Shown here: positions 2,184 through 21,824 of the stretch, piece after piece | Position numbering within the stretch: the first letter of the stretch is position 1 | How the letters are laid out: each line of letters starts with the position of its first letter | NCBI GenBank assembly: GCA_947178475.1 | Contig: CAMWYM010000022.1 | Coordinates: 1-33,998 of the forward strand | DNA from: an uncultured Clostridium sp. | GTDB taxonomy: Bacteria > Bacillota > Clostridia > Lachnospirales > Lachnospiraceae | DNA length: 33,998 bases | Direction: 5' to 3' | Notes under the pieces: model-generated | The model's input: the letters and a program-made list of their open reading frames with translations, nothing else | Told to the model about the DNA's origin: nothing | Database searches by the model: none | Translations under genes and position numbers: made by a program

Positions 2184-2861
2184 TTACAACAACTCCTTAA
2201 TCTCACTACGCCTGCTGACTCCAAGCTTTGCAAAAATATTAGACAGATGTTTCTTTACTGTGGTTTCCGATATAAACAGCTCATCTGCTATTTCCGCATT
2301 ACTTTGATTTTTTATCACCAGTAATGCAATCTCAACCTCTCTTTTTGTCAAGCCCAGTGCCTGAAGCCGTTCTCTGTAGTTAGTTCCTCCCGCCGCCTTT
2401 TGGTCTTCAAATTCCCTACCCGGCAGAGCATTTGCATCCTGCCTCACAGTCTCAGCTTTTTCCTTTGATGTATCCTGCAAAATCACCCATATACAGAATC
2501 CATATAGAATCGGACGACAGGACAGAGCAAGCACCTGCATGCTTGTGTTTTCGGTATCCGGCCAGACTATGCCCATATTGGCTAGTAGCAAGACAAAGGT
2601 TTGCAGGATTCCCGCCCACAGGGCATTTTGTCCAATCCAAATTTTTTCACGATGAAAAAAAGCTTTCCAGCCTTCCACGGGCTGATCCTCTGCTTTCTTC
2701 CCCCATTCCCTGTGCTTGTCAGCCAAAGCCGGGAGAAGGAGCAGGCACGTACCGAATATCACCAATACAAATTGCCTGAAATCAAACAAAAGCCGCAAAT
2801 CAAATTTTAAAAATGCTGCAATCAGCACAAGATACAACAGAACTCCTATGCCCTTTTTCAT
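2184..2861 (-). CDS. Membrane-tethered LuxR-type DNA-binding protein
   Basis: This 225-residue protein is a likely membrane-bound transcription factor. The N-terminal half has about four transmembrane segments (near residues 5-22, 30-48, 80-100 and 106-126). A polar linker leads to a LuxR/GerE helix-turn-helix at about 170-222 (LTKREVEIALLVI, NAEIADELFISETTVKKHLS, IFAKLGVSRRSEI). It has no receiver domain, no phosphorylatable aspartate and no kinase domain, so control must come through the membrane part or a partner. Its start overlaps the stop of the MotA-like gene by 4 nt (ATGA), so the two are translationally coupled and probably interact. It is the last gene of the 4899-to-2184 operon with an ABC-2 exporter, so autoregulation of that exporter is a reasonable inference. 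Confidence 0.8.
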   Translation of the reverse strand: MKKGIGVLLYLVLIAAFLKFDLRLLFDFRQFVLVIFGTCLLLLPALADKHREWGKKAEDQPVEGWKAFFHREKIWIGQNALWAGILQTFVLLLANMGIVWPDTENTSMQVLALSCRPILYGFCIWVILQDTSKEKAETVRQDANALPGREFEDQKAAGGTNYRERLQALGLTKREVEIALLVIKNQSNAEIADELFISETTVKKHLSNIFAKLGVSRRSEIKELL

Positions 2862-3328
2862 TCTTCACTCTCCATAAAATCTGCGATTTTCTGCTCCAAC
2901 CGGCTATTAATCGGAAACAATATAAGACAAATGATAAATCCGTATAACAGGCTAATCAGTGCTACGGAATACCCCATTCCCGCCTCTGACCACCCACCTG
3001 CTTTGGCTCCTACTCTCACACACTCTACCAGTGTGCTTACCGCACCCGCAAACAGTGAGCTGCTCATAGCAAGCTTTATTGCAGCCTTTGCCCTTCTAAG
3101 CTCCTTTAAGCACTCTGCTTTTTTCCTGCCAAGGGTCAGTTTAAATGCATTATGAAAGTCCTTAAGCAATCCCGCTGCTGCAAGAATCGGAACCACAATA
3201 ATTGCCATAAACAAAATGGTCGCTGAATCAATATAATAGAAAGCAATATTGATATCAAATCCGGAGGCATTTACTGCCAGCATCAAATAAACCGATAAAA
3301 TGATTCCTAATATTACAAAAATATACAT
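2858..3328 (-). CDS. Small MotA/TolQ/ExbB-like membrane protein
   Basis: This 156-residue integral membrane protein has four likely helices, near residues 2-22, 34-55, 92-108 and 118-140. The layout recalls flagellar stator MotA and ExbB/TolQ proton-channel subunits. The N-terminal part (FYYIDSATILFMAIIVVPILAAAGLLKDFHN, quoted here only by its ends FYYIDSA and LLKDFHN) is like the MotA helix 1-2 region. The helix-4 stretch YSVALISLLYGFIICLILFP is like the MotA helix that ends in a proline before a polar tail. MotA is about 250-290 residues; here the cytoplasmic loop between helices 2 and 3 is cut to about 35 basic residues. No MotB/ExbD-like partner with a single helix and a catalytic aspartate is nearby. 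The gene is coupled to the membrane LuxR gene. Channel activity is not proven by the sequence. Confidence 0.65.
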   Translation of the reverse strand: MYIFVILGIILSVYLMLAVNASGFDINIAFYYIDSATILFMAIIVVPILAAAGLLKDFHNAFKLTLGRKKAECLKELRRAKAAIKLAMSSSLFAGAVSTLVECVRVGAKAGGWSEAGMGYSVALISLLYGFIICLILFPINSRLEQKIADFMESEE

Positions 3329-3376
3329 CTACATCCTCCTTAATGAAACCCTGCATCAAAATGTGACCTGCCCGGG

Positions 3377-4105
3377 TTATTTTAATTCCATCCGCTCAAA
3401 TATAACTGTCGCTGCCGACAGTGCCAGTAAAAGAGTAAGCACCATAACCATCACAAATGTTCCGATTGAAAACTCTTGTCCCAAAAACGCAAGCTGCCCA
3501 ATCTGATATGAATAAGAATATCTCAAAAAAGGTAAAAGTGCCTCCGACAAATTTGTTTCCGCCCACAGCAAAGAATATGTTATCCCTATACCGGCACCGA
3601 TTGTCACAATCGCTCTTTTTGCTATCACAGCAACAAGAATCATCACTGCTCCCATTGCTGCGTATCCCAACACTCCATAAAATAGCAGAAATATCGCATT
3701 CTGACAAGTTTCCGGACAAATTCTTTCACCAAAACCATTGGCAATTGACACAACAACCGTTGTCATTCCCGTATATACCAAAAAAAGCAGGAGCAGTCCG
3801 GCAAGGAATACAAAGGCCTTGGACAGAAATATCTTCCTGCGGGAATGACCGCATAACAAACTCATTCCGAAGGTTCGATTGGAAAATTCCACACACAGGA
3901 AAACTGCTGCAAATAAATACCCGATAACCGCATGATGCAATATGTATGTCAAAGCAATGATATACATATCATATCCTGTCCCCTTGGCCCCCATGGCAAC
4001 CAGACAAAGGGTACTGAATAATGAAGCCGCATTACATAGGAGCAACGTTTTAAAGCCACGGGATTTTGATAATTTAAACCATTCTGCTTTGATTAAATTT
4101 CTCAT
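3377..4105 (-). CDS. ABC-2 type exporter permease
   Basis: This 242-residue membrane subunit is the channel of an ABC-2 exporter. It opens with MRNLIKAEWFKLSKSRGFK, the amphipathic N-terminal interface helix typical of bacitracin/lantibiotic-immunity permeases, and then has six hydrophobic segments. The cytoplasmic loop EFSNRTFGMSLLCGHSRRK between helices 2 and 3 matches the coupling-loop pattern (E-f-x-x-x-T) of this family. Its ATG overlaps the ATPase stop by 4 nt, so it is cotranslated with its partner. A gap of 48 nt separates it from the MotA-like gene. The substrate is probably a peptide or cell-envelope antibiotic, inferred from the family only. Confidence 0.85.
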   Translation of the reverse strand: MRNLIKAEWFKLSKSRGFKTLLLCNAASLFSTLCLVAMGAKGTGYDMYIIALTYILHHAVIGYLFAAVFLCVEFSNRTFGMSLLCGHSRRKIFLSKAFVFLAGLLLLFLVYTGMTTVVVSIANGFGERICPETCQNAIFLLFYGVLGYAAMGAVMILVAVIAKRAIVTIGAGIGITYSLLWAETNLSEALLPFLRYSYSYQIGQLAFLGQEFSIGTFVMVMVLTLLLALSAATVIFERMELK

Positions 4106-4899
4106 CGTTCCCCTCCTTCCCCCTTTATGACTGTCATATAATATTTTTCCAGACTGGCGTTTTTCTCTTCCAGCCTCTTCTCTTTTAATTTTTCCCTAAG
4201 CCTTTCCGCTGTAATCTCTTCTACCATTTTACCCTTATGGATAAAGCCATAGCAGGTTGCAAGCTGACTAAGTTCCCCCAAAAGGTGGCTCGAAATCAAA
4301 ATCGTTATCCCTAATTCCCTGTTCAGTTTTTTTAAAAGCTCTCTAAATTCCACAATTCCTTCCGGGTCCAGACCGTTGATGGGTTCATCCAGCACCAAAA
4401 ATTCCCGATTACTCATCAACGCCATTGCAAGACCTAACCGCTGTTTCATCCCTAAAGAGAAATCCTTTACTCTTTTATCAGCAGCATCTGTCAGTCCCAC
4501 AAGCTTTAGCAGCTCCAAAATACAGCCCCGTCCGGATATGCCATACTGAAGCCTTAAAACCTCCAGATTATCCGTTGCCGTCATCCCAAGATACAGTGCT
4601 GGTATTTCAATCATTGCACCGATGCGCCTGCGCTGTACGCATAAGCCCTTCTCTTCGCTTTCCCCAAAGAACTCCACTTTCCCTGCGCTCTGCCTCGCTC
4701 TCCCTGCCAATATACGCATCAGCGTTGTTTTCCCGGCACCATTTTTTCCCACAAATCCATAGATATCTCCTTTGTGAATCTCCATACAAAGCCCGTCAAG
4801 TGCATAAAATCTATCCGTATAAAAACCCCCGGATTTGATATCAAATGCCCTTCGATACTGCTTGGTTAAATTGCTGGCAGCAAATATGATTTCCGACAT
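4102..4899 (-). CDS. ABC transporter ATP-binding protein (BcrA/NatA-type)
   Basis: This is a 265-residue ATPase subunit for the adjacent ABC-2 permease. Motifs are all intact: Walker A GKNGAGKTT near 53-61, signature FSLGMKQRLGLAMAL, Walker B FLVLDEPINGLDPEG, and the H-loop in ISSHLLGELSQLA. An insertion of about 12 residues after Q14 (RRAFDIKSGGFYTDR) precedes the usual aromatic A-loop position. A GAGG-rich ribosome binding site (AAGGAGG) stands seven bases before the ATG. It is the first gene of the operon running to 2184. The region upstream, shared with the divergent LytTR operon, holds an inverted repeat at 4981-4997. Confidence 0.9.
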   Translation of the reverse strand: MSEIIFAASNLTKQYRRAFDIKSGGFYTDRFYALDGLCMEIHKGDIYGFVGKNGAGKTTLMRILAGRARQSAGKVEFFGESEEKGLCVQRRRIGAMIEIPALYLGMTATDNLEVLRLQYGISGRGCILELLKLVGLTDAADKRVKDFSLGMKQRLGLAMALMSNREFLVLDEPINGLDPEGIVEFRELLKKLNRELGITILISSHLLGELSQLATCYGFIHKGKMVEEITAERLREKLKEKRLEEKNASLEKYYMTVIKGEGGER

Positions 4900-4980
4900 A
4901 CCATTCCTCCTTTATCCCATTTTTCTCCTTTTTAACAAAGGTATGGCATAAAGTCCATACTCCTATGGTAGTATATGGGG

Positions 4981-4997
4981 TAGTATTTTTTATACTA
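4981..4997. promoter_or_regulatory. Inverted repeat between divergent ABC and LytTR operons
   Basis: TAGTAT-TTTTT-ATACTA is a perfect 6-bp dyad. The same half-site motif (GTAGTAT) recurs nearby at 4968-4974 and 4980-4986, so this is a cluster of related half-sites 82 nt upstream of the ATPase start codon and about 48 nt upstream of the LytTR promoter -35. A shared operator is plausible. No regulator of the GntR/YtrA kind, which would fit such sites, is encoded here. Confidence 0.4.
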
Positions 4998-5044
4998 TAC
5001 TGAAAAGCAGGGCAAATTTGCACTATCACCCCTTTGTTTAAGCA

Positions 5045-5073
5045 TTGATAATTCCACCTCATTAAAGTATAAT
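5045..5073 (+). promoter_or_regulatory. Sigma-A promoter of the LytTR/GHKL operon
   Basis: TTGATA (5045-5050), a 17-nt spacer and a perfect TATAAT (5068-5073) make a near-consensus vegetative promoter, with transcription expected to begin near 5080 and a 5' leader of about 30 nt. CACCTCA (5055-5061) and TGAGGTG (5092-5098) form a distant inverted repeat across the -10. The second arm contains the Shine-Dalgarno, so this symmetry may be chance. Confidence 0.75.
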
Positions 5074-5109
5074 CATTCCTATAAGTTTACCTGAGGTGAG
5101 GTGTTTTTT

Positions 5110-5823
5110 ATGTACAACATTGCGATTTGTGATGATGAAGATATACTCATTCGTGAGCTGAAAGAAAATTTACAAAAATATGCCACCGAAACAAACAGAG
5201 AATTTTGCTTCTTTATCTATCATGATGGCAGCGAATTATTACAAAATTATAACTCTGATTACGATTTGATATTTATGGATATAAAAATGGAACAGCTAAA
5301 CGGTTTAAAAACGGCCGAAGAAATCCGGAAAATAGACAATACAGTGGGACTGATTTTCCTAACCTCCTTAAAGAAATATGTATGGAAGGGGTATGAATTT
5401 GGTGCGGTCAATTATCTGCTAAAGCCGGTGAACTACAATATCCTGAAAATGGAGCTTGACCGTTACTTTGCCCGCTACCAGGGCAGAGACGAGCCGTATA
5501 TCAGTTTTTCCAATAATAATGGCAGGTATAAAGTATTATATAAGAATTTAAGCTATGCCGAGACAGATAAGCGTAATGTAATGCTGCATTTTGAGGGACA
5601 GAAGCAGGTCATTTATAAGAATATGAAAACGGTTTCTTCCCTGCTCTGTTCACAGCCGCAGTTTGCACATTGTCATCAGAGCTTTGTCGTGAACCTGTCC
5701 TTTGTAAAGGGCGTGGAGGGATTAGAGCTGTTTCTGATTACAGGAGAACGGATTCCCATCAGCCAGCCAAAGCGAAAAGAATTTATGGAAAAATTAACCG
5801 CATACATAGGAGAGTTGTTATGA
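5110..5823 (+). CDS. LytTR-family response regulator (AgrA/VirR type)
   Basis: This 237-residue cytoplasmic response regulator has a receiver domain at 1-120, with acidic pocket D8-D9, phospho-acceptor D57 in DLIFMDIKM and the conserved lysine K105 in LLKP. A LytTR DNA-binding domain lies at about 130-236 (YKVLYKNLSYAETDKRNV; FAHCHQSFVVNLSFVKGV). The ATG at 5110 (MYNIAICDDE, as in the family) is preferred over an in-frame GTG at 5101. The GAGGTGAGG stretch at 5093-5101 is well placed for the ATG. The stop overlaps the kinase start (ATGA), so the two are a coupled pair. Targets may include its own promoter or the ABC genes at 7438-10527, since LytTR/GHKL pairs often sit beside exporters. This is inference. 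Confidence 0.92.
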   Translation: MYNIAICDDEDILIRELKENLQKYATETNREFCFFIYHDGSELLQNYNSDYDLIFMDIKMEQLNGLKTAEEIRKIDNTVGLIFLTSLKKYVWKGYEFGAVNYLLKPVNYNILKMELDRYFARYQGRDEPYISFSNNNGRYKVLYKNLSYAETDKRNVMLHFEGQKQVIYKNMKTVSSLLCSQPQFAHCHQSFVVNLSFVKGVEGLELFLITGERIPISQPKRKEFMEKLTAYIGELL

Positions 5824-7106
5824 TACGATTTTTAGATATTCTTTCTTTTCTGCTGGAATTGAGCTACAGTGTTGTATTTTTTTTGATGATTCATACGTTT
5901 CTGCCTCTGCGTAAAAATCGACTGGTACGTATACTTGCCTTTTTTGCATGCAGCACCTTATCCGCAGTTATAATCTATTCCAACGACCTGGCCAATCTTC
6001 TCGGGGCACTTTTAGGAATTTCCGCATATATTGTGGTATTTCACTGCGGACACTGGGCAAGAAAAATGACTGCTATACTGGTGTTTTATCCAGCACTGAT
6101 TGCGGTAAACTATCTTATGCAGGATATTGGGTCAAGATGCTTCTTCTCCACAACGGGAGCTCCCAATCCTTCAGCCGGATGGACAAAGGAGCTATATTTA
6201 ATCAGCACCGCTATTCATACGCTGTCTTTGCTGCTCAGACTTTTATTCTGGATTCTGTCATTGCGGATTTTACAAAAATATTTGCGGCATATCACGTCTA
6301 ATTTAACAGTAAAAATGTGGCTTATGATGGATGCTTTAATGCTGGCTCCCTTCATAGCAATCTTTACCATTATTTATTCTATGCCGGAAAACCCTCTGAT
6401 TGTCTATCCTATATGCGGGGCATCCATATTTTCCAGCTTTGGCTGTATATATCTTGCTTCTTACATTTGTGATTCCGTACAAACCGCATACTATGCACAG
6501 GAATTAGAAATGAAGCAGGCATATTACCGTGACCGGACAAGCGATGAGGAACGGGTCCGCTCTGTTTACCACGATATGAAGAATCACCTGCTTGTGCTGG
6601 AGAGGCAGACCAGTTCAAAGGAAACCGCCCAAATGTTAGAGACACTGCAGCAGGAGGTGGAAATGTACGAGAACTATGCACATACAGGCAACGACATTTT
6701 GGATATCATTTTGAAGGAAAAAACAGAGCTTGCAAGGAAAAAACAAATCGACTTTTCCATTACCGCTGACTTAGACGGCATCAATTTTATCGAACCATTA
6801 GATATCAGTACCATTTTCGGCAACAGCCTTGACAATGCCATTGAAGCGAGTGAGAAGCTTCCCGAAGGGCAAGGCGCTATTCTTGTGAAAGCGGTCAGAG
6901 TGCAGAATTTTCTCTCCATTCTCATTGAAAATAACTGCGAGGAAAACAGCCCTTCTGTCAGCAGGCGGACTACCAAGAAAGATGATTTCCTCCACGGCTT
7001 CGGCATCTCTAACATGAAGAATGCCGCTGCAAAATACAAGGGACAGCTGATTACAAAATGTGAAAATGGCAAATTTACTTTAAAAATATTAATTCCAATC
7101 CCATAA
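5820..7106 (+). CDS. GHKL-domain sensor histidine kinase (AgrC-like)
   Basis: This 428-residue membrane sensor partners the LytTR regulator. The first 215 residues carry about six hydrophobic segments, as in AgrC-type peptide sensors. A dimerisation helix follows with phospho-acceptor H251 in VYHDMKNHLLVLE. The GHKL ATPase part has an N-box GNSLDNAIEA near 334-343 and a G-box HGFGISNMKNAAAKYKGQL near the end. The start is the ATG at 5820, which overlaps the regulator's TGA; frame extension upstream only translates the regulator gene out of frame. No AgrD-like prepeptide or AgrB processing protease is encoded here, so the signal is unknown. A strong terminator follows at 7121-7152. Confidence 0.92.
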   Translation: MIRFLDILSFLLELSYSVVFFLMIHTFLPLRKNRLVRILAFFACSTLSAVIIYSNDLANLLGALLGISAYIVVFHCGHWARKMTAILVFYPALIAVNYLMQDIGSRCFFSTTGAPNPSAGWTKELYLISTAIHTLSLLLRLLFWILSLRILQKYLRHITSNLTVKMWLMMDALMLAPFIAIFTIIYSMPENPLIVYPICGASIFSSFGCIYLASYICDSVQTAYYAQELEMKQAYYRDRTSDEERVRSVYHDMKNHLLVLERQTSSKETAQMLETLQQEVEMYENYAHTGNDILDIILKEKTELARKKQIDFSITADLDGINFIEPLDISTIFGNSLDNAIEASEKLPEGQGAILVKAVRVQNFLSILIENNCEENSPSVSRRTTKKDDFLHGFGISNMKNAAAKYKGQLITKCENGKFTLKILIPIP

Positions 7107-7437: not shown

Positions 7438-8103
7438 ATGACAATATTAAACGCAGCTCATTTAAAAAAGTATTACGGCAGGGACGAAAGCCTTGTAAAA
7501 GCATTGGATGATGTAAATGTATCGGTTGAGACCGGACAATTTGCAGCGATTATCGGCACTTCAGGAAGTGGAAAATCCACACTGCTGAATATGCTCGGCG
7601 GTCTAGATGCCCCGACTTCCGGCAGTGTGCAGGTGGAGGACAAAAATATTGAAAAACTGACGGAGGAACAGCTTACTGTGTTCCGCCGACAAAGAATAGG
7701 CTTTATCTTCCAGAACTATAACCTTATCCCCTATCTCACGGCTTATGAAAACATCGTGCTGCCTGTCCGTTTGGATGGCAAGACAGAGGACAAAGAATTT
7801 CTGGAGGAAATCGTTAAATTTCTGGAGCTTGACAAGAAGCTTTCCAATTATCCAAGCCATCTTTCAGGCGGTCAGCAGCAACGGGTGGCAATCGCCCGTG
7901 CGTTGATATCAAAGCCTGCTATCATCTTAGCCGATGAACCCACGGGCAATCTTGACAGTAGAACAAGCGACAAGGTGATTGAGCTTTTGAAGCTGACTAG
8001 TGAACGTTTTGGGCAGACGATTGTGATGATTACCCATAATCCTGAAATTGCCCAAAAAGCAGATGTACAAATCCGCATTGAAGACGGCAAAATCCAATCA
8101 TAA
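7438..8103 (+). CDS. MacB/LolD-type ABC transporter ATP-binding protein
   Basis: This 221-residue ATPase powers the FtsX-family permease encoded next. Walker A is GTSGSGKST near 40-48, followed by LLNMLGGLDAPTSG, the hallmark of the MacB/LolD/BceA group. The Q-loop region is FIFQNYNLIPYLTAYENI, the signature is LSGGQQQRVAIARAL, Walker B is IILADEPTGNLDS, and the H-loop is MITHNPEIA. AGGAGGG seven to thirteen bases before the ATG supports this start. This class usually does not transport through a pore but drives mechanical work, such as antimicrobial-peptide resistance or lipoprotein/peptide release; the role here is unknown. It sits behind a structured leader and downstream of a LytTR/GHKL pair that may regulate it. 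Confidence 0.92.
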   Translation: MTILNAAHLKKYYGRDESLVKALDDVNVSVETGQFAAIIGTSGSGKSTLLNMLGGLDAPTSGSVQVEDKNIEKLTEEQLTVFRRQRIGFIFQNYNLIPYLTAYENIVLPVRLDGKTEDKEFLEEIVKFLELDKKLSNYPSHLSGGQQQRVAIARALISKPAIILADEPTGNLDSRTSDKVIELLKLTSERFGQTIVMITHNPEIAQKADVQIRIEDGKIQS

Positions 8104-8118
8104 GGGGGCTTGGTGGAA

Positions 8119-10527
8119 ATGAACAACAAAAAGATAAGCAAAAAAATGATTCTACAGATGGCAAAGCAAAGCTTAAAATCAAGCCGCATGCGAAACATCT
8201 TTGTGATGATTACAATTGTTTTAGCTTCCGCCCTGTTAACCGTCATCCTGATGTTTGCAATGGGTCAGAAGCAGCAGACAAAAAATGAGCTTTCACACAG
8301 ACAGCAGGTGAGCTACTATAACCTTACCAGTGCGCAAATGGAGGCACTGACAAATGACGAGCGCATTGCCTATCAGATACAGGTAAAGACCGGTATTCTT
8401 TCCGAAATGGACGGCTTTGATGTGATGCCATATTATGTGAGTGAGCTGTCTGATAAAATTAAAATCGGCGAGTTGGAAAGCGGTCAAATGCCTGAAACAG
8501 AAAATGAGATTGCAGTACAGGCGGAAATGCTGAAAAAAATGGATATTACACCCACTGTTGGCAACAGTGTAAGCTTTACTTTTTATGACGGAACCACGGA
8601 AACCTTTACCGTGTCAGGTATTTTAAAGGGCGGCGATACGGCGAAGCAGTTTTCCGTTTTCTTTTCCAGAAGCTATGCGGAAAGCGGCAGCCAGCTAAAG
8701 GATATGCCTTATGAAGTACATGCAAAACTATATAATGCTGATAATCTTTATGCTGAGGATTGCAAAGAAGCAATGTATTTAATCGGCAGCGATGCAGGAA
8801 TCGAAAGAAAATATATCACTCCTTCAAAGGCATTTCTCGACTCTCTGTCCATAGATACACAATCGGTAACGCTTTATGGTCTGGTAGGTGCGGTAATCCT
8901 GCTTGCCTGCATTCTTGTTGTCTATGGTGTATTTTATCTATCCGTTATTGGAAGAATCCATCAATTCGGACAGCTTCGCACGATTGGCATGACAAAAAAG
9001 CAGATGAAGAAGCTTGTGTCCCATGAAGGCCGTAAGCTGTTTCTGCGTTCTGCACCTATCGGCATTATCATTGGGGGAGTTGCGGGATATTGCATTATTC
9101 CAGATGGTTTTAACCTCTTCAATACACTTATCATTATTGGTCTTGTGTTTGTGGTTATCTATGTTATCACGATGATTTCTATCGGAAAACCTGCCCGTCT
9201 TGCGGCGATGGTCTCCCCAATGGAGGCCCTTCGTTACATGCCGCAGACCGGAATGACGCAGGCGGCAAATAGAAAAATGTGCCGCAGACTGACACCATTT
9301 CGCTTAGGTGTAATGAATTTTTCAAAAAATAAAAAGAAGGCAGTTATCACGATGCTGTCCCTGGCTTTGGGAGGGATTCTCTTTATGACCGCAGCAACCT
9401 ATATGTCCTCTTTTGATAAGGCGAATTATGCAAGACAGGGATATTTTACAGATGCAGAATTCCATATAGAATATTCCCCGTCAGCCATCAGTCTGAACGA
9501 ATACGGAATGAGTGGTCTGCAGGCCAAAGCTCTGCTTAACAAGGAATTGATACAACAGCTTACCTCTTTGGATGGGGTAAGAACGGTAACAGAAATAAAG
9601 GGCTTCGGTGTCAAATTTGATTATCCTAAAAATGATGAATATGCCAATGACGATGCTATTTATCCAATGACGGAGGAAGAAACAAGGGAAATCGAAGGCT
9701 ATCTGGAGGACGGCTCTGCTGACTATGAGAAGCTAATGAGCGGTGACTATATTCTTGTGGCAGGCAACAAAACTGCCGAGGAAATTTTCGGCTGGAGGTT
9801 TGCCGTAGGAGATACCATTACGCTCCATTACTATGATGGCGATCAAACAGCCCAAAAGGACGTCAAGGTGCTTGGTATTTTGAATGAACAATATGTCCTT
9901 GACAATAACGGGTTGGAAGGATGGTTTTTAATGCCTGAACAGGCAATTTTAAAGCAGGTGTCCTATGACAGCTTAAATGCCCATCTCCTGATTTCAACCG
10001 AGGCAGACAAAGAAGCGGCAATCGGAGAAGTTCTTACGGAAATGATCGCAGAAAAACCGGAGTTACTTCTTGAAACACTTGCAGAACGCAGAATCTCCTA
10101 TGAACAATCTGCAAATCAGATATTCGGGGCAATCGGCGGTCTTGCTATTTTCATCATGATGTTTAGCATCTTAAGCATGATCAATACCCTGATTACCAAT
10201 ATCATTACCCGTAAACAGGAGCTTGCAATGCTTGAATCCATCGGTATGAGCAAAGGTCAAATCCGCAAAATGCTCCTTTCAGAGAGCCTGCTTTTGGTAT
10301 TTGCCACTGTCGGTGTCACAATTACCATCGGAACCCTGTGCGGCTATGAACTGAGTAATCTGCTTTACAATATGGGAGCATTCTATATGGCATTCCGCTT
10401 CCCGGCAGGCTTTGCCCTTGCATATGCTGGTGTGTTAGTAATCGTCCCTCTGCTGATTACCCTGGTGTCTATGCACAGCTTTTCCAAGGAGATACTTGTG
10501 GAAAGATTACGAGGTACAGAAAATTGA
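8119..10527 (+). CDS. ABC transporter permease with two FtsX domains
   Basis: This is an 802-residue membrane subunit partnered with the preceding ATPase. It has a first helix near residues 25-45 and an extracytoplasmic domain of about 200 residues. A first FtsX block of three helices covers about 255-365 (LVGAVILLACILVVYGVFY; RTIGMTKKQMKKLVSHEG). A further helix near 410, a second extracytoplasmic domain and a final FtsX block (LAMLESIGMSKGQIRKMLL) follow. The paired GMTKKQ/GMSKGQ loops are the coupling motifs of the family. The start is taken as the ATG at 8119, although GTG 8113 and TTG 8110 are in frame; the GGGGG at 8104-8108 and GGTGG close to the ATG leave the choice open. The 3' end overlaps the convergent YfhO gene by 21 nt. 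Confidence 0.88.
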   Translation: MNNKKISKKMILQMAKQSLKSSRMRNIFVMITIVLASALLTVILMFAMGQKQQTKNELSHRQQVSYYNLTSAQMEALTNDERIAYQIQVKTGILSEMDGFDVMPYYVSELSDKIKIGELESGQMPETENEIAVQAEMLKKMDITPTVGNSVSFTFYDGTTETFTVSGILKGGDTAKQFSVFFSRSYAESGSQLKDMPYEVHAKLYNADNLYAEDCKEAMYLIGSDAGIERKYITPSKAFLDSLSIDTQSVTLYGLVGAVILLACILVVYGVFYLSVIGRIHQFGQLRTIGMTKKQMKKLVSHEGRKLFLRSAPIGIIIGGVAGYCIIPDGFNLFNTLIIIGLVFVVIYVITMISIGKPARLAAMVSPMEALRYMPQTGMTQAANRKMCRRLTPFRLGVMNFSKNKKKAVITMLSLALGGILFMTAATYMSSFDKANYARQGYFTDAEFHIEYSPSAISLNEYGMSGLQAKALLNKELIQQLTSLDGVRTVTEIKGFGVKFDYPKNDEYANDDAIYPMTEEETREIEGYLEDGSADYEKLMSGDYILVAGNKTAEEIFGWRFAVGDTITLHYYDGDQTAQKDVKVLGILNEQYVLDNNGLEGWFLMPEQAILKQVSYDSLNAHLLISTEADKEAAIGEVLTEMIAEKPELLLETLAERRISYEQSANQIFGAIGGLAIFIMMFSILSMINTLITNIITRKQELAMLESIGMSKGQIRKMLLSESLLLVFATVGVTITIGTLCGYELSNLLYNMGAFYMAFRFPAGFALAYAGVLVIVPLLITLVSMHSFSKEILVERLRGTEN

Positions 10528-13415: not shown

Positions 13416-14540
13416 ATGAAAGCCAAAAAAATACTTGGATTGTTTTTACTTAGCAGTACATTACTTATGTCAACCGGATGTTTCAGAATCTATGAAGACT
13501 TCACGGTAAACCCGGACGGAACCGTTACTGAGACAGCTAAAATCTGTATCAGCAAGGAATACATAGACAGCTCCGGAGATAAACTGGATGCCGATACCAA
13601 AGTGGAAACATTAGAGGACGGAAAGGTTTACTACACTACCACCGATAAACAAAAAATATCAACCTCTACAACAATTCTCCCCTCAGACAGCTCCCTTGGT
13701 TTTATCCTTACAAAGGATATTTTCTATTATGCCCACGAGAACAGTCTCAAAAATATTCCACTCTATGCACGGGAAGAATATTCACCAGATGACCTGTATG
13801 CAAAATTTAACATTACGCTTGCCGGTCCTATAGCGGACACTAACGCCAATATCAGCGCAGAAACAGCAGGCAATACAGCCTCTTTTGATACCTCAGGTAC
13901 ATCCTCTATATGGTATGCCTATACGGCAGAGGGAAAGAAACAGATTGAAGAAGATACAATTGCCCCTGTGATCAAGGGAGTGAAGAAAAACAAATACTAT
14001 CAATATCACTATATGCCGGATATCTCCATATCCGATAATGTTGCCGTTACGAAAATTACGCTTAACGGAAGCAACGCTACACCCTCACAGCGAACAAAGT
14101 CGGTCAAAGAAGACGAGATCAGATACCAGCTTATTAAAGGTCGGACAAAGAAATATATCATCTATGACTGGGTAACTATTGCCGACAACTGCGAGGTAAG
14201 CCTTGTAAAAGAGGGGAAAAACGTATTAACCGCATATGATTTACACGGAAACACCACTTCGGTTACCTATTATGTAGATTCCAAGGCACCGATAATAAAA
14301 GGCGTAAAGAACAAGAAAACCTACCGCAAACAGGCAATCCTCTATGTCAAAGACAAACAAAAGCTTGCAAAAGTAACCGTTAATAACAAAAAGCAAAAGC
14401 TATCCCGAAAGAATCTTGTCAAAAAAGGAAAATACAAAGGTTACTACAAAATCAAGGTATCTCAAAAGGGAAGCAATTACATCACAGCCTATGACCAGGC
14501 TGGCAATAAAAAGAACATTACCATTAATATTGTGAAATAA
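13416..14540 (+). CDS. Lipoprotein with LppM-like start and two Ig-like repeats
   Basis: This 374-residue surface lipoprotein has a signal peptide ending in the lipobox LMSTGC, so C22 should be lipidated. The following YEDFTVNPDGTVTETAKICIS pattern resembles the start of LppM-type lipoprotein domains (a beta-rich 'D-x-T-V-N-x-D-G-T-V' entry). Two C-terminal repeats begin APVIKGVKKNKYY (about 182) and APIIKGVKNKKTY (about 290). They end in WVTIADNCEVS-like and SNYITAYDQAGN-like strands, as in bacterial Ig-like domains found on surface proteins. The last repeat is strongly lysine-rich, suggesting contact with anionic wall polymers. AAAGGAGG precedes the ATG. Its stop is one base from the stop of the convergent kinase gene, and the kinase/regulator pair may control it through the repeat at 13239. 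Confidence 0.8.
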   Translation: MKAKKILGLFLLSSTLLMSTGCFRIYEDFTVNPDGTVTETAKICISKEYIDSSGDKLDADTKVETLEDGKVYYTTTDKQKISTSTTILPSDSSLGFILTKDIFYYAHENSLKNIPLYAREEYSPDDLYAKFNITLAGPIADTNANISAETAGNTASFDTSGTSSIWYAYTAEGKKQIEEDTIAPVIKGVKKNKYYQYHYMPDISISDNVAVTKITLNGSNATPSQRTKSVKEDEIRYQLIKGRTKKYIIYDWVTIADNCEVSLVKEGKNVLTAYDLHGNTTSVTYYVDSKAPIIKGVKNKKTYRKQAILYVKDKQKLAKVTVNNKKQKLSRKNLVKKGKYKGYYKIKVSQKGSNYITAYDQAGNKKNITINIVK

Positions 14541-17510: not shown

Positions 17511-20500
17511 TCACTGTTCCCATTCCACAGTACTCCCTGCATTGTTCTTCTTTACCATCAGCCTGTCATCAATAGTATCTCTTAATTCTGCCACATGAGA
17601 GATTATACCAATCAGGCGTTTCCCTCCTGCCAGCCCCTTTAGCAGCTGCACTGCTGCATTGCGGGAATGGCTATCCAGAGAACCAAAGCCTTCATCAATA
17701 AACATCATATCAAGCTGTAAACCACTATTGGCGCTCTGAATACAATCAGCTATTCCCAGTGCGAGTGATAACGCCGCCATAAAAGATTCTCCCCCGGAAA
17801 GAGTGACAATATCCCGATAGGAATCTGTTACCAGTGAATGTACGACAAAATCCAGTCCTTCATTTATCCGGTTTCCCACCTGACTAAATTCCTTCACCTG
17901 AAGCTCATATTGACCAGCCGTCATCTCCGTAAATCTGCGGTTTGCAGCAGATAGTACCTGCTTCAAATAATATCTCTGCACATAGGTTTCCAAGTCCATC
18001 TTGTTCTGCCCCGCTACATTTCCACTGGCAATTTCATATAGACGACGTAAAACTGCTGCTTCTTTATATGTCTCACTATGCTTTTCCTGCAATAAACGTA
18101 AGCTGTTAAGGCTCTGCACTGCCGGTTGAAAATATCCCTGAAGTCTCTCCTTTTGGTTTGTATATTCTGCTGATTCCCTTCGGTTCTTTTCTAAAGCCTC
18201 CCTTAATCCGTCAGTATCCGGCTTCGCCCTTCCCTCCGTCACCTGTCTGGCTGCATGAATCCTCTCCGTACACTGACGCATACGCTCCCGGTAAGCCTCT
18301 GCCTCCTCCTTCTTTTCCCGATATTGCTCCCTGGTATAAGAAGTTAAATCATTTTCCAACAGACTACGTCCCATGCCTTTTTTCTCCAGCATATCTTGAA
18401 GCCGTTTCTCCTGTTTTTCCCAGTTACTTTTTAACACACTCTGCCTGCTTTTCTGCTCATCAATCCGGTCTGAAAGTGCCTGAAGCTTTCTTATGGTTTT
18501 TGCCTTTATCTCTTCACATTCCCGAAAGCTTTTTTCTCTAATATGATAATCCTTCTCCTGCTTTTCAAATTCACGTTTGGCTATTTTCTGATTCTCACAG
18601 GAAAGCTGTCTTGCCTGTTCCTCCATAGAACTCTCGAGAGCGGTAAGTCGAAGTGTACATTGGCTTAACTCCTCCTTCTTCTGTTCTTTCTGACGTTCCA
18701 GCTCCTCAAGCTGTTTCTCCAGCAGCTTCTGTCGTTTTTGCTGCTCCTCCTGCTGTTCAACCCGCCGTTCCCATTGCTCCACATCCTCCTGCCGCAGCTT
18801 TAACTGCCGGCAAAGCTCTGCTCCCCGTTGTTCTAGCACCTCATCTGGTTCTACAGAGGAATCCCATTTGCCAAAAAGCCTCTCTCCTCTCTCGGCTATC
18901 TGTCGGATAAGCTGCTCCTGTGCTTCTCCCTTTTTCATTACACTGGCAGATGCCTCCTCTGTTCTCTGCCTTGCCTGTCGCCACATCTCTTCCTCACGGT
19001 TCACCTCATCCTCCGTATACACCCTACCCCCACAAAGCTTTGCCGGTGCAGGATGATGAACGGAACCACAGACGGGACACGGCTCCTCCTCCTTTAAAGC
19101 TTCCGCCAAAACCCCTGCCTGATTATCCAGAAAATGCCGGCGGATTTCCTGAAATTTTTGGTTTACCTTATTCTCCTCTTCTTTAGCCCTCTTATATTCC
19201 TCCTGCAGCGTAACCAGTGCTTCCCTATCCTTTTTCCAGCGGTCGGACAGGCTCTCAAGCTCTTCCTTTTCCTCCACCTGCTGCCTTGCTTTTTCCAGAA
19301 GCTGCCTTGCCTTCTCCAACTCAAGTCCTGCATTTTCCGACTGTGCAGAAGCTTCCCGTATTTTCTGGCATTCCTCCTGCCTTACGGCAAGCTCCTCCGA
19401 CACTTTTGCATAGGCTCCTTCCAATTTCAGCCTATCCTGTTCAATCCTGTTTTTATCTTTCTCCTTTTTCTCTAATTCCTCATAGATACTCTTTTGCCTG
19501 CTATATTTTTCCTTCGCCACATGATATGCTTTAAGCGCCTCGTCCCACTGAGGCTTTTCCCGGTCAAAAGCCGCCTCCGCCTCTTCAGCCTCTTTTTTAC
19601 ATTGTGGTAACCTTTCCAAATTTTCGTTTAAATTCTGCTCATTTTCCCGGAAGCGATTCCCTGCCTCACATGCCGCATTCCAATAAGACTCCAGCTCGTA
19701 AGCCCGTTCCAATTCAGCTACCAGCTTCTCCTCGCTTTCTCTGTCCTTTTCTTCCTGCCGCAAAAGAGATAAGGTCTCCTCCGCATTTTGCAACTCTAAA
19801 AATGCCTTACCAAGAGCCTGTGCCTCCCCCTGTGCCTTGGTCAGCTCCTGTTGCTCTTTGCTTAACCGGTCTGCCTTTTGCAACAGTTCCTTCAGCTCAC
19901 CACTCTCCCAATCCATCAGCTGCTCCAATTCCGCCAGATATTCTTCTAAATAACTAAGGCTTTTACACACCTTCTCCTTTGCCTTATCATAGCCTTCTCC
20001 ATTTTCATACTCCTCTGGTATCAGAACAGCACTAATCACCGTCTCACAACGTGTCTTCAAAATTGCCGTCTCTTTCTCCTTTTCATCCTTGCGTGACTTT
20101 AATTCATCTCTAATCTGCCTATACATTTCCGTATTAAACAGCTTTCGGAATATCATGACCTTTTTATCCGTGTCCGCCCGAAGCAACTCCATAAACTCTC
20201 CCTGGGCAATCATCGCCACCTGCATAAACTGCTCCTTGGTAAGTCCCACCAACTCGATAATCCTTCTTTGTATATCCTTCTCCCTATAAGCAACACCGTC
20301 TGGCAGTATCAGCTCCACTGACCCCCGTTCCTCTATCATTCCCCTTGTACCCGCACTTTTCCGCTTTGCCCGCCGTATATGCTTCGGTATTCTGACAATG
20401 GTATAGCAGCCCTCACCAGCCCTTAACGAAAACGTAAACGTTACCTTCGGTGTCACATCCAGGTCTGCAAACTGGCTCTGCAGCATTACCCCTTCCTTTG

Positions 20501-20681
20501 CATCTCTGGTGGAGCTGCCCTCTCCGTACAAAGCAAAAACAATGGCATCAAAAATAGTGGTTTTTCCTGAACCGGTATCTCCACTGATAAGAAAAAGATT
20601 CTGTGATGGTCGGGTAAAATCAATTTCCGTCCACTCTCTGTATGAGCCAAATGCCTGCATTCCTAATTTCAGTGGTCTCAT
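17511..20681 (-). CDS. sbcC: Exonuclease SbcC (Rad50-like SMC ATPase)
   Basis: This is a 1056-residue ATPase subunit of the SbcCD (Rad50-Mre11-like) nuclease, which opens hairpins and cleans blocked DNA ends. The N-terminal ATPase half has Walker A SGDTGSGKTTIFDAI near residues 33-47. Two long coiled coils very rich in E, K, Q and R flank the zinc hook CPVCG at about residue 534. The C-terminal half has signature LSGGESFMAALSLALG (about 955) and Walker B MMFIDEGFGSLD (about 990). The ATG follows the SbcD stop with no gap, and the end of sbcD supplies the ribosome binding site AGGGGG. Length is normal for the family (about 1040-1050). Confidence 0.96.
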   Translation of the reverse strand: MRPLKLGMQAFGSYREWTEIDFTRPSQNLFLISGDTGSGKTTIFDAIVFALYGEGSSTRDAKEGVMLQSQFADLDVTPKVTFTFSLRAGEGCYTIVRIPKHIRRAKRKSAGTRGMIEERGSVELILPDGVAYREKDIQRRIIELVGLTKEQFMQVAMIAQGEFMELLRADTDKKVMIFRKLFNTEMYRQIRDELKSRKDEKEKETAILKTRCETVISAVLIPEEYENGEGYDKAKEKVCKSLSYLEEYLAELEQLMDWESGELKELLQKADRLSKEQQELTKAQGEAQALGKAFLELQNAEETLSLLRQEEKDRESEEKLVAELERAYELESYWNAACEAGNRFRENEQNLNENLERLPQCKKEAEEAEAAFDREKPQWDEALKAYHVAKEKYSRQKSIYEELEKKEKDKNRIEQDRLKLEGAYAKVSEELAVRQEECQKIREASAQSENAGLELEKARQLLEKARQQVEEKEELESLSDRWKKDREALVTLQEEYKRAKEEENKVNQKFQEIRRHFLDNQAGVLAEALKEEEPCPVCGSVHHPAPAKLCGGRVYTEDEVNREEEMWRQARQRTEEASASVMKKGEAQEQLIRQIAERGERLFGKWDSSVEPDEVLEQRGAELCRQLKLRQEDVEQWERRVEQQEEQQKRQKLLEKQLEELERQKEQKKEELSQCTLRLTALESSMEEQARQLSCENQKIAKREFEKQEKDYHIREKSFRECEEIKAKTIRKLQALSDRIDEQKSRQSVLKSNWEKQEKRLQDMLEKKGMGRSLLENDLTSYTREQYREKKEEAEAYRERMRQCTERIHAARQVTEGRAKPDTDGLREALEKNRRESAEYTNQKERLQGYFQPAVQSLNSLRLLQEKHSETYKEAAVLRRLYEIASGNVAGQNKMDLETYVQRYYLKQVLSAANRRFTEMTAGQYELQVKEFSQVGNRINEGLDFVVHSLVTDSYRDIVTLSGGESFMAALSLALGIADCIQSANSGLQLDMMFIDEGFGSLDSHSRNAAVQLLKGLAGGKRLIGIISHVAELRDTIDDRLMVKKNNAGSTVEWEQ

Positions 20682-21824
20682 CTATACTTCCCCCTGTACC
20701 TTGTTGATAACATCCTTGATAATCTGCTGTTCCTCCCTGTCCAGTTCAGGGCAAAACTGCATAAATAATTCAAATGCACTTTGCTCTTTTATCTGCTCCA
20801 TTTCCACATCCTCTGCAGCAAAGGATACCGCATATTCATTTCGGACACCCAGGAGATGAGGAAATGCCTCTCTGAGTCTTTGCTGCATATCTGTAATGTC
20901 CAAGTCTGTCCTTTCTGTAAGCGATACCCATATATAATCCTCACTGGGAACCGCTGTCACTTCCTCCAAAGTTCCCCTTTGGGTGCGTACCTGACGGAGC
21001 GGTATCAATGGCAGCCGGCGAATAACCGGTGCATCTCCTTTTTGGGTAAGCGTGACCACCAGCACTCCCTTCTCCTGATTTTCCTCGCTGATGGAATATG
21101 CCATAGGCGTACCACAATAGCGGATAGTATCCCGCTCCACCCGCATTGGTTTATGAAGATGCCCTAATGCCACATAGTCAAAGGGCGCTAAGCAGTCAGT
21201 GGTAACGGAATCAATATTTCCAATAGTATAAACCTCCGTTTCCGCTCTCTCTATATTTGCGGCATCTTCTTTGTCTCTCACAAAGAACTGATGGCTTACC
21301 AGCACATTGCGTTCTTCCAAATCAATATTCTCCCTCTCCAGCAGCAAATGAAGTGCCTCATCATAGGAAACTGCCTGCTCTCCGAAAATCCCCCGCAAAA
21401 AGAACGGTTTTACAAAGGGCAGTAAATAGAAATGCACCGGACCATGCTCGTCCCTTACCGTTACCTTTTCAATATATTCCTCCGGTGTCTGTGGCGGCAG
21501 TCCCACCATATATACCTGTTCTTCCTTTAAAATATTTCTAAAACAATCAATTCTCTGCGGAGAATCATGATTTCCTGCAATCAACATAATCGGCATATCT
21601 GATTTCACCCGTCTAAGCCCGGTAATAAATCCATCAAACACCTCCACTGCTTCTGCTGAAGGCACAGACTTATCATAAATATCCCCTGCAATAACAACAG
21701 CATCCGGCTGTTCCTCGTCTGCCAACTGGATAATCTGGTTCAAAATATGCTGCTGATCATCCTTTAAGTCATAATTATGTAAATGTATCCCAATATGCAA
21801 ATCGGACAAATGCATGAATTTCAC
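20682..21824 (-). CDS. sbcD: Exonuclease SbcD (Mre11-like nuclease)
   Basis: This is a 380-residue metallophosphoesterase nuclease and the catalytic partner of SbcC. Metal-binding motifs are all present: DLHIG (8-12), GDIYD (47-51), GNHDS (84-88), VSHQFF and GHLHKPM. The C-terminal capping region follows, and the family length is about 380-400. The start is the GTG at 21824, giving the family-typical MKFMHLSDLH; the helicase gene end supplies GGGAGGTG six bases before it. An internal ATG at 21815 would lose the first beta strand. It is part of the four-gene operon 24185 to 16621, and its product should meet SbcC in a two-plus-two complex. Confidence 0.95.
   Translation of the reverse strand: MKFMHLSDLHIGIHLHNYDLKDDQQHILNQIIQLADEEQPDAVVIAGDIYDKSVPSAEAVEVFDGFITGLRRVKSDMPIMLIAGNHDSPQRIDCFRNILKEEQVYMVGLPPQTPEEYIEKVTVRDEHGPVHFYLLPFVKPFFLRGIFGEQAVSYDEALHLLLERENIDLEERNVLVSHQFFVRDKEDAANIERAETEVYTIGNIDSVTTDCLAPFDYVALGHLHKPMRVERDTIRYCGTPMAYSISEENQEKGVLVVTLTQKGDAPVIRRLPLIPLRQVRTQRGTLEEVTAVPSEDYIWVSLTERTDLDITDMQQRLREAFPHLLGVRNEYAVSFAAEDVEMEQIKEQSAFELFMQFCPELDREEQQIIKDVINKVQGEV

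Follow-up and report, generated by a model that had tools for sequence, protein, structure and literature searches.

What would a short relative of the flagellar stator protein MotA and a membrane-anchored LuxR-type protein do together behind the genes of an exporter? This question is raised by a 33,998-base contig of the 3.12-Mb draft genome of an uncultured Clostridium sp. (Lachnospiraceae), referred to here in its whole length as the window. We call the two proteins MOT and LUX. Our reading, to which we assign a probability of roughly 55%, is that together they make up a membrane-bound transcription switch of two genes, composed of domains of the MotA type, MotA being a proton-channel subunit of the flagellar stator. 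From its upstream end, the unit consists of the following features (nt, nucleotides; aa, amino acids; ABC, ATP-binding cassette):

4958-4985, minus strand: putative operator heading the four-gene unit, with 58 nt between it and the ATPase start codon
4102-4899, minus strand: ABC transporter ATPase, 265 aa (PF00005 ABC_tran, 5.5e-26, above cut-off)
3377-4105, minus strand: ABC-2 type permease, 242 aa (PF12730 ABC2_membrane_4, 5.4e-9, above cut-off)
2858-3328, minus strand: MOT, 156 aa, a short membrane protein of MotA fold with four hydrophobic segments
2184-2861, minus strand: LUX, predicted MotA-like membrane domain plus LuxR/GerE domain, 225 aa (GerE/LuxR, 5.5e-17)

The four reading frames lie where a preliminary description of this DNA had placed them on the minus strand, with 4-nt overlaps between ATPase and permease (4102-4105) and between MOT and LUX (2858-2861) and a gap of 48 nt between permease and MOT.

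MOT is a homologue of MotA without the rotor-contacting loop. Hydropathy places its hydrophobic segments around residues 1-19, 37-55, 86-104 and 122-140, and an interval of about 30 residues between transmembrane segments 2 and 3 (TM2 and TM3) stands in place of the torque domain, while the TM3-TM4 signature of MotA is retained. The four helices are those of the MotA fold and the structure model is MotA-like. The window protein alone scores 14.2 bits against the Pfam family PF01618 MotA_ExbB, below the cut-off of 22.9; 6 of 14 members of the MOT family have a match at E ≤ 0.1, the best at 3.7e-7. The family profile matches six MotA/PomA sequences of the PDB at 4e-10 to 4e-9 and three more at 0.006-0.02, and hhalign comparison with 15 MotA-length proteins gave 6.7e-11 (A7) and 1e-14 (A1), with 0.12 for a reversed control. 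The preliminary description had suspected a relationship to MotA, and these family-level matches and the model bear it out, the single-protein Pfam score being sub-threshold. MotA/ExbB/TolQ-type proteins are known as ion-driven motors. A working motor role of MOT is unlikely, because B-subunit genes are not among the conserved neighbours, and the only MotB found in the genome, at C4, adjoins a full-length motA (a frame of 288 aa). Both hallmarks of a flagellar MotAB stator, the cytoplasmic torque domain and the MotB partner, are lacking in MOT. An orphan MotB was considered and discarded on account of that position; ExbD-type partners were not searched.

LUX is a two-part protein. Residues 164-225 form a LuxR/GerE DNA-binding domain (61.6 bits, cut-off 23.5), as the preliminary description had proposed; what it missed is that the membrane half, residues 1-140, models as a MotA-like domain, with the same predicted fold as MOT. 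Its hydrophobic segments fall by hydropathy at 4-22, 28-46, 81-99 and 110-128. The top six structural rows for this half are all MotA/PomA, and hhalign aligns it with the MotA-like domain of the XRE fusions described below at 4.6e-6 (reversed controls, 0.03-0.55). A Foldseek search with LUX had no MotA among its best 50 rows. LytTR is not among the 15 Pfam matches of LUX at E ≤ 1, and LUX is thus not a LytTR regulator by this measure.

The MotA-like module occurs in three arrangements. In architecture A, that of the window, MOT is accompanied by a MotA-like-LuxR protein; in architecture B, by a bare LuxR domain of 78-85 aa (L038, L042, L044, L046, L051, L055, L056); in architecture C, the MotA-like domain carries an XRE helix-turn-helix (HTH) domain fused to its N-terminus. 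MOT aligns with these fusions at 1.9e-28. Nine of the nine architecture C rows in alignment A2 carry HTH_3 and three match MotA_ExbB at E ≤ 0.1. At least one fusion, L036, passes the Pfam MotA_ExbB cut-off with 28 bits, and automated annotation may therefore already show the XRE-MotA architecture without comment. The long MOT relatives found at E ≤ 1e-12 (about 250 aa) were considered as flagellar MotA proteins, a reading set aside by the XRE-type N-terminus present in all 13. Two unrelated DNA-binding domains thus attach to the module, in cis and in trans, which is strong circumstantial evidence that it serves transcription control. Upstream of the XRE-MotA genes in L039, L041, L045 and L052, ATTCTAC-like repeats are discernible by eye, which suggests a putative operator of their own. 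XRE-MotA genes are followed by ABC transporter genes in L050 and L154 (in the latter on the minus strand, with a one-base overlap), and an exporter association may recur in this class. In three bare-LuxR loci, the gene after the pair encodes a related protein of 229-230 aa (L038:3081-3773, L046:8564-9253, L055:2195-2884), with an N-terminal hydrophobic stretch and, by eye only, a resemblance to peptidyl-prolyl isomerases.

The pairing of MOT with LuxR genes is conserved. The single MOT protein as query has matches in 25 of 299 genomes of the family, 16 of them stand-alone short proteins and nine XRE-MotA fusions; a LuxR gene lies directly downstream in 14 of the 16, window included, and is absent next to two weak relatives (L048 and L053). 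With the MOT profile at E ≤ 1e-12, 27 of the 299 genomes match, with 14 short and 13 long proteins, and every short one has a LuxR neighbour. In a second collection, of named genomes, LUX adjoins MOT in 19/19 loci, three of which come from genomes already in the family set (L030-L032 share their genomes with L091, L087 and L099). The preliminary description had asked whether the 156-aa and 225-aa families co-occur, and had reckoned with there being no conserved neighbourhood; the two are neighbours in 14/14 and 19/19 loci, and it is the exporter that is not conserved. Beyond the family, the pair is present in Acetoanaerobium noterae (Filifactoraceae) and in two genomes from a different family within the class; a further two genomes, both of one genus, have its bare-LuxR form. 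A class-wide draw yielded short MOT proteins in 6/291 genomes, and a phylum-wide search at E ≤ 1e-12 in 2/398, namely the genome that holds the window and one other from its family. By profile search at the same threshold, MOT is absent from G188, the only other genome of the genus that was drawn. A scan of genome contigs with the single MOT protein found no relative, tblastn against phages gave no match at E 1e-5, and tblastn against plasmids returned one record, from Acetoanaerobium.

A shared composite site lies upstream of these units, with direct half-sites TACTAC-N6-TACTAC followed after N4 or N14 by GTAGTA. In the window, the direct half-sites are followed after N4 by an inverted GGAGTA, and this is the sole match of the pattern, at the window spacing, in the 3.12-Mb genome. 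Half-sites number 43 in the 5,129 bases upstream of 23 operon heads and 272 in 357,098 bases elsewhere, against an expectation of 3.9 (over 300 dinucleotide shuffles the mean was 4.5 and the highest count 13); this count omits L089 (which nearly duplicates L086), L096 (where the upstream region is short), L033, L057 and L058, and takes L091 by the region upstream of its MOT, which has no sites. Allowing at most 3 mismatches in 18 positions, the composite site is found at 19 of 27 class-A heads and in 5 of 1,976 control pieces, which were not fully masked, such that the one scoring 0 may be a true site. The 27 heads are those of L083-L102, L034, L035, L037, L040, the window, L057 and L058, with L091 taken by its motA head and both L086 and its near copy L089 counted. 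L033 scores 4 mismatches, as does L087 when extended. When the spacing is left free, 22 heads reach a score of 3 or better; the gap pairs are 6/14 (six loci), 6/4 (four), 5/4 (three), 6/3 (two) and seven single others, and the commonest second gaps, 4 and 14 nt, lie one helical turn apart. Upstream of MOT itself, the window has no composite site (best 7 mismatches, control-like), and in L091 the site precedes motA, not MOT, and heads motA-MOT-LUX. Lying before the ATPase gene in the window and before motA in L091, the site therefore marks the head of the whole unit. Class-B loci have a word of their own, AAAAGGTACTAT, in 7/7 cases; its five occurrences in 640 kb (both strands, L030-L053) are the five class-B loci there.

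LUX is also the only constant neighbour of the pairs. In a clustering of the genes around 41 loci (30 LuxR pairs, nine XRE fusions, L048 and L053), the next-largest cluster covers seven loci; the clustering missed LUX in L044 and L086, where an overlapping frame was chosen, and LUX is present in both. An ABC-2 type exporter stands beside the pair in 2 of 31 loci (the 30 LuxR pairs and the window), namely before it in the window and after it in L087 (genome G184), where the permease was recognised by eye. The two ATPases are 45% identical; the L087 permease gave no meaningful alignment with that of the window and was rejected as its homologue. By eye, an importer-like set of ABC genes precedes the pair in L033; in L093 there is an ABC gene on the opposite strand. 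Elsewhere the neighbours vary (coaX/coaBC-like, HisS-like, radical-SAM and others, recognised by eye). The four genes, taken together in the preliminary description, are thus not one conserved system, and the exporter is an accessory to the MOT-LUX pair. Within the window, the best NCBIfam match of the ATPase is the lantibiotic-protection ATPase TIGR03740, at 195.9 bits, short of the curated cut-off of 309.75 that would place it among lantibiotic-protection ABC exporters. That the LuxR protein sets exporter transcription, as first proposed, is likely, because a LuxR-type putative operator lies upstream of the ATPase gene. In L091 (6283-7660), a full-size motA of 268 aa without motB directly precedes MOT; it could be left over from the origin of the module, be carried as cargo, or reflect an assembly join, the contig being a metagenome one.

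How would such a switch operate? MOT and the membrane half of LUX would come together in the membrane like MotA subunits, and the LuxR domain would bind the putative operator and activate its own operon. Activation is plausible because the minus strand showed no sigma-70-like site from the ATPase start up to position 5200 (4899-5200). MOT would either keep the LuxR domain inactive or sense a signal, for which envelope stress, a membrane-active compound or the ion-motive force are candidates; in the working idea of the preliminary description, it would read membrane state or exporter activity. Release would result in positive feedback and, in the window, in more of the ABC-2 exporter, by which the inducing compound would be expelled. 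The opposite sign, in which membrane-held LUX represses the operon and MOT relieves the repression on a signal, in the manner of an anti-sigma factor, fits an operator near the presumed promoter region equally well; we consider it unlikely, since no promoter-like minus-strand site is found near the ATPase start and in several loci the composite sites lie, by eye, upstream of the best -10-like sequences, an arrangement commoner for activators. Several observations weigh against the switch as we read it. The operator pattern was picked after inspection and the loci are related. Across the family it is not a specific word and was discarded as such: it matches in 38/299 genomes and a reversed control pattern in more, 62 (counted from the listing), and among the matches listed 3/44 lie beside MOT, the only informative position. 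On the minus strand, MOT is immediately preceded by a promoter-like (3427-3399) and a terminator-like site (3422-3405), and the ATPase gene by another terminator-like site (4960-4941), which makes separate or attenuated transcription within the unit possible; the signal scan reported in total 11 promoter-like sites (7.4 expected) and 6 terminator-like sites (2.5 expected).

Other readings give the membrane part a different task. MOT and the MotA-like half of LUX could form a mixed ring that reads proton- or sodium-motive force or the integrity of the membrane, gating the dimerisation of LuxR on DNA, in which case flagellar-motor machinery would have given rise to a family of transcription factors reading the proton-motive force or the membrane, XRE fusions included; this more specific proposal is tentative, and we would sooner doubt it than adopt it. 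That MOT is itself an ion channel or a pore that reads the proton-motive force and gates the LuxR domain, as a sensor derived from the stator, would agree with its MotA homology, down to the TM3-TM4 signature, and with two different MotA-type proteins being encoded together, but no B-subunit with its ion-binding aspartate adjoins (ExbD-type partners were not searched), and we find it improbable. Still less probable is an exporter with a built-in energiser, where MOT, with LUX, would be a proton channel powering or regulating the ABC exporter and the LuxR domain would be secondary. The same retained signature and the adjacent, overlapping genes headed by a putative operator speak for it; yet ABC exporters are driven by ATP, one stands beside the pair in only two loci whereas the LuxR partner is constant, and the genome has one MotB and the pair no conserved B-subunit neighbour. 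Membrane-bound regulators are common, according to part of PMC10269533, and L048 and L053 lack the LuxR neighbour, both of which would suit a chance arrangement, with a membrane-anchored LuxR protein of the ordinary kind next to a small membrane protein unrelated to it. Such a coincidence is nevertheless hardly credible, given that the adjacency is kept over several families amid varied surroundings and that both proteins model as the same fold.

A LytTR response regulator and a GHKL sensor kinase are encoded divergently at 5101-7106, a near-consensus plus-strand promoter at 5045-5073 serves the divergent regulator gene, and an ABC transporter pair (7438-10527, by eye) follows; these genes form a separate unit of the peptide-sensing type. 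Two further frames lack assignment, of 187 aa (772-1335, no Pfam match better than 0.1) and 374 aa (13416-14540, no match at E ≤ 1e-6), and 17511-21824 carries an ordinary SbcC/SbcD-like nuclease pair. In about a dozen family genomes, a 30-mer like TACTACCAATTTTACTACTAACAGGTAGTA recurs away from MOT (loci L107, L108, L109, L111, L117, L120, L125 and L128).

The closest known parallel is the LytTR Regulatory Systems HdrRM and BrsRM, in which, as far as the consulted part of PMC6193735 describes them, a DNA-binding regulator is paired with a membrane inhibitor and activates its own operon, direct repeats lie upstream of the operon promoter and some operons include ABC transporter genes. MOT-LUX resembles them as a two-gene unit of regulator and membrane protein with, in some operons, ABC genes; the composite site at 19 of 27 class-A heads may correspond to their repeats. 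It differs in the MotA fold of the membrane part, the membrane gene coming first and the regulator having a predicted MotA-like half of its own; inhibition and autoactivation, shown for those systems, are conjectural here. By analogy, it is plausible that MOT-LUX works like them; membership is excluded, because the regulator is not LytTR and is LuxR or XRE instead. MOT shares its fold, four helices and TM3-TM4 signature with the MotA/PomA stator subunits (PF01618) but has no torque loop or adjoining MotB-type gene and is tied to HTH proteins. The C-terminus of LUX is 54% identical over 54 columns to the Enterococcus faecalis LiaR domain, and unlike LiaR/VraR/GerE-type regulators it has no receiver domain, with the predicted MotA-like membrane half in its place. 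LUX is a membrane-anchored HTH protein, as are the transmembrane transcription regulators and membrane one-component systems of PMC10269533; unlike the ones covered in the part consulted, it is proposed to work with a second, MotA-fold protein, and a term search of that article's main text returned none of 'MotA', 'ExbB', 'LuxR' and 'GerE'. No description of a MotA-HTH gene switch was found in the open-licence literature of PubMed Central (PMC). The parts are thus known, and the combination, a membrane-bound transcription switch whose membrane fold is unexpected, was not found in that literature.

The occurrence of the MotA fold in a conserved regulator pair, and its fusion to a second, unrelated DNA-binding domain, suggests a role as a membrane signalling module. 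With two genes and one putative operator, the pair provides a small, testable system in which to ask whether a complex of the stator type can report the state of the membrane to a promoter. It also provides a rule, based on genome neighbourhood, by which small, uncharacterised membrane proteins in the Lachnospiraceae and their relatives can be annotated.
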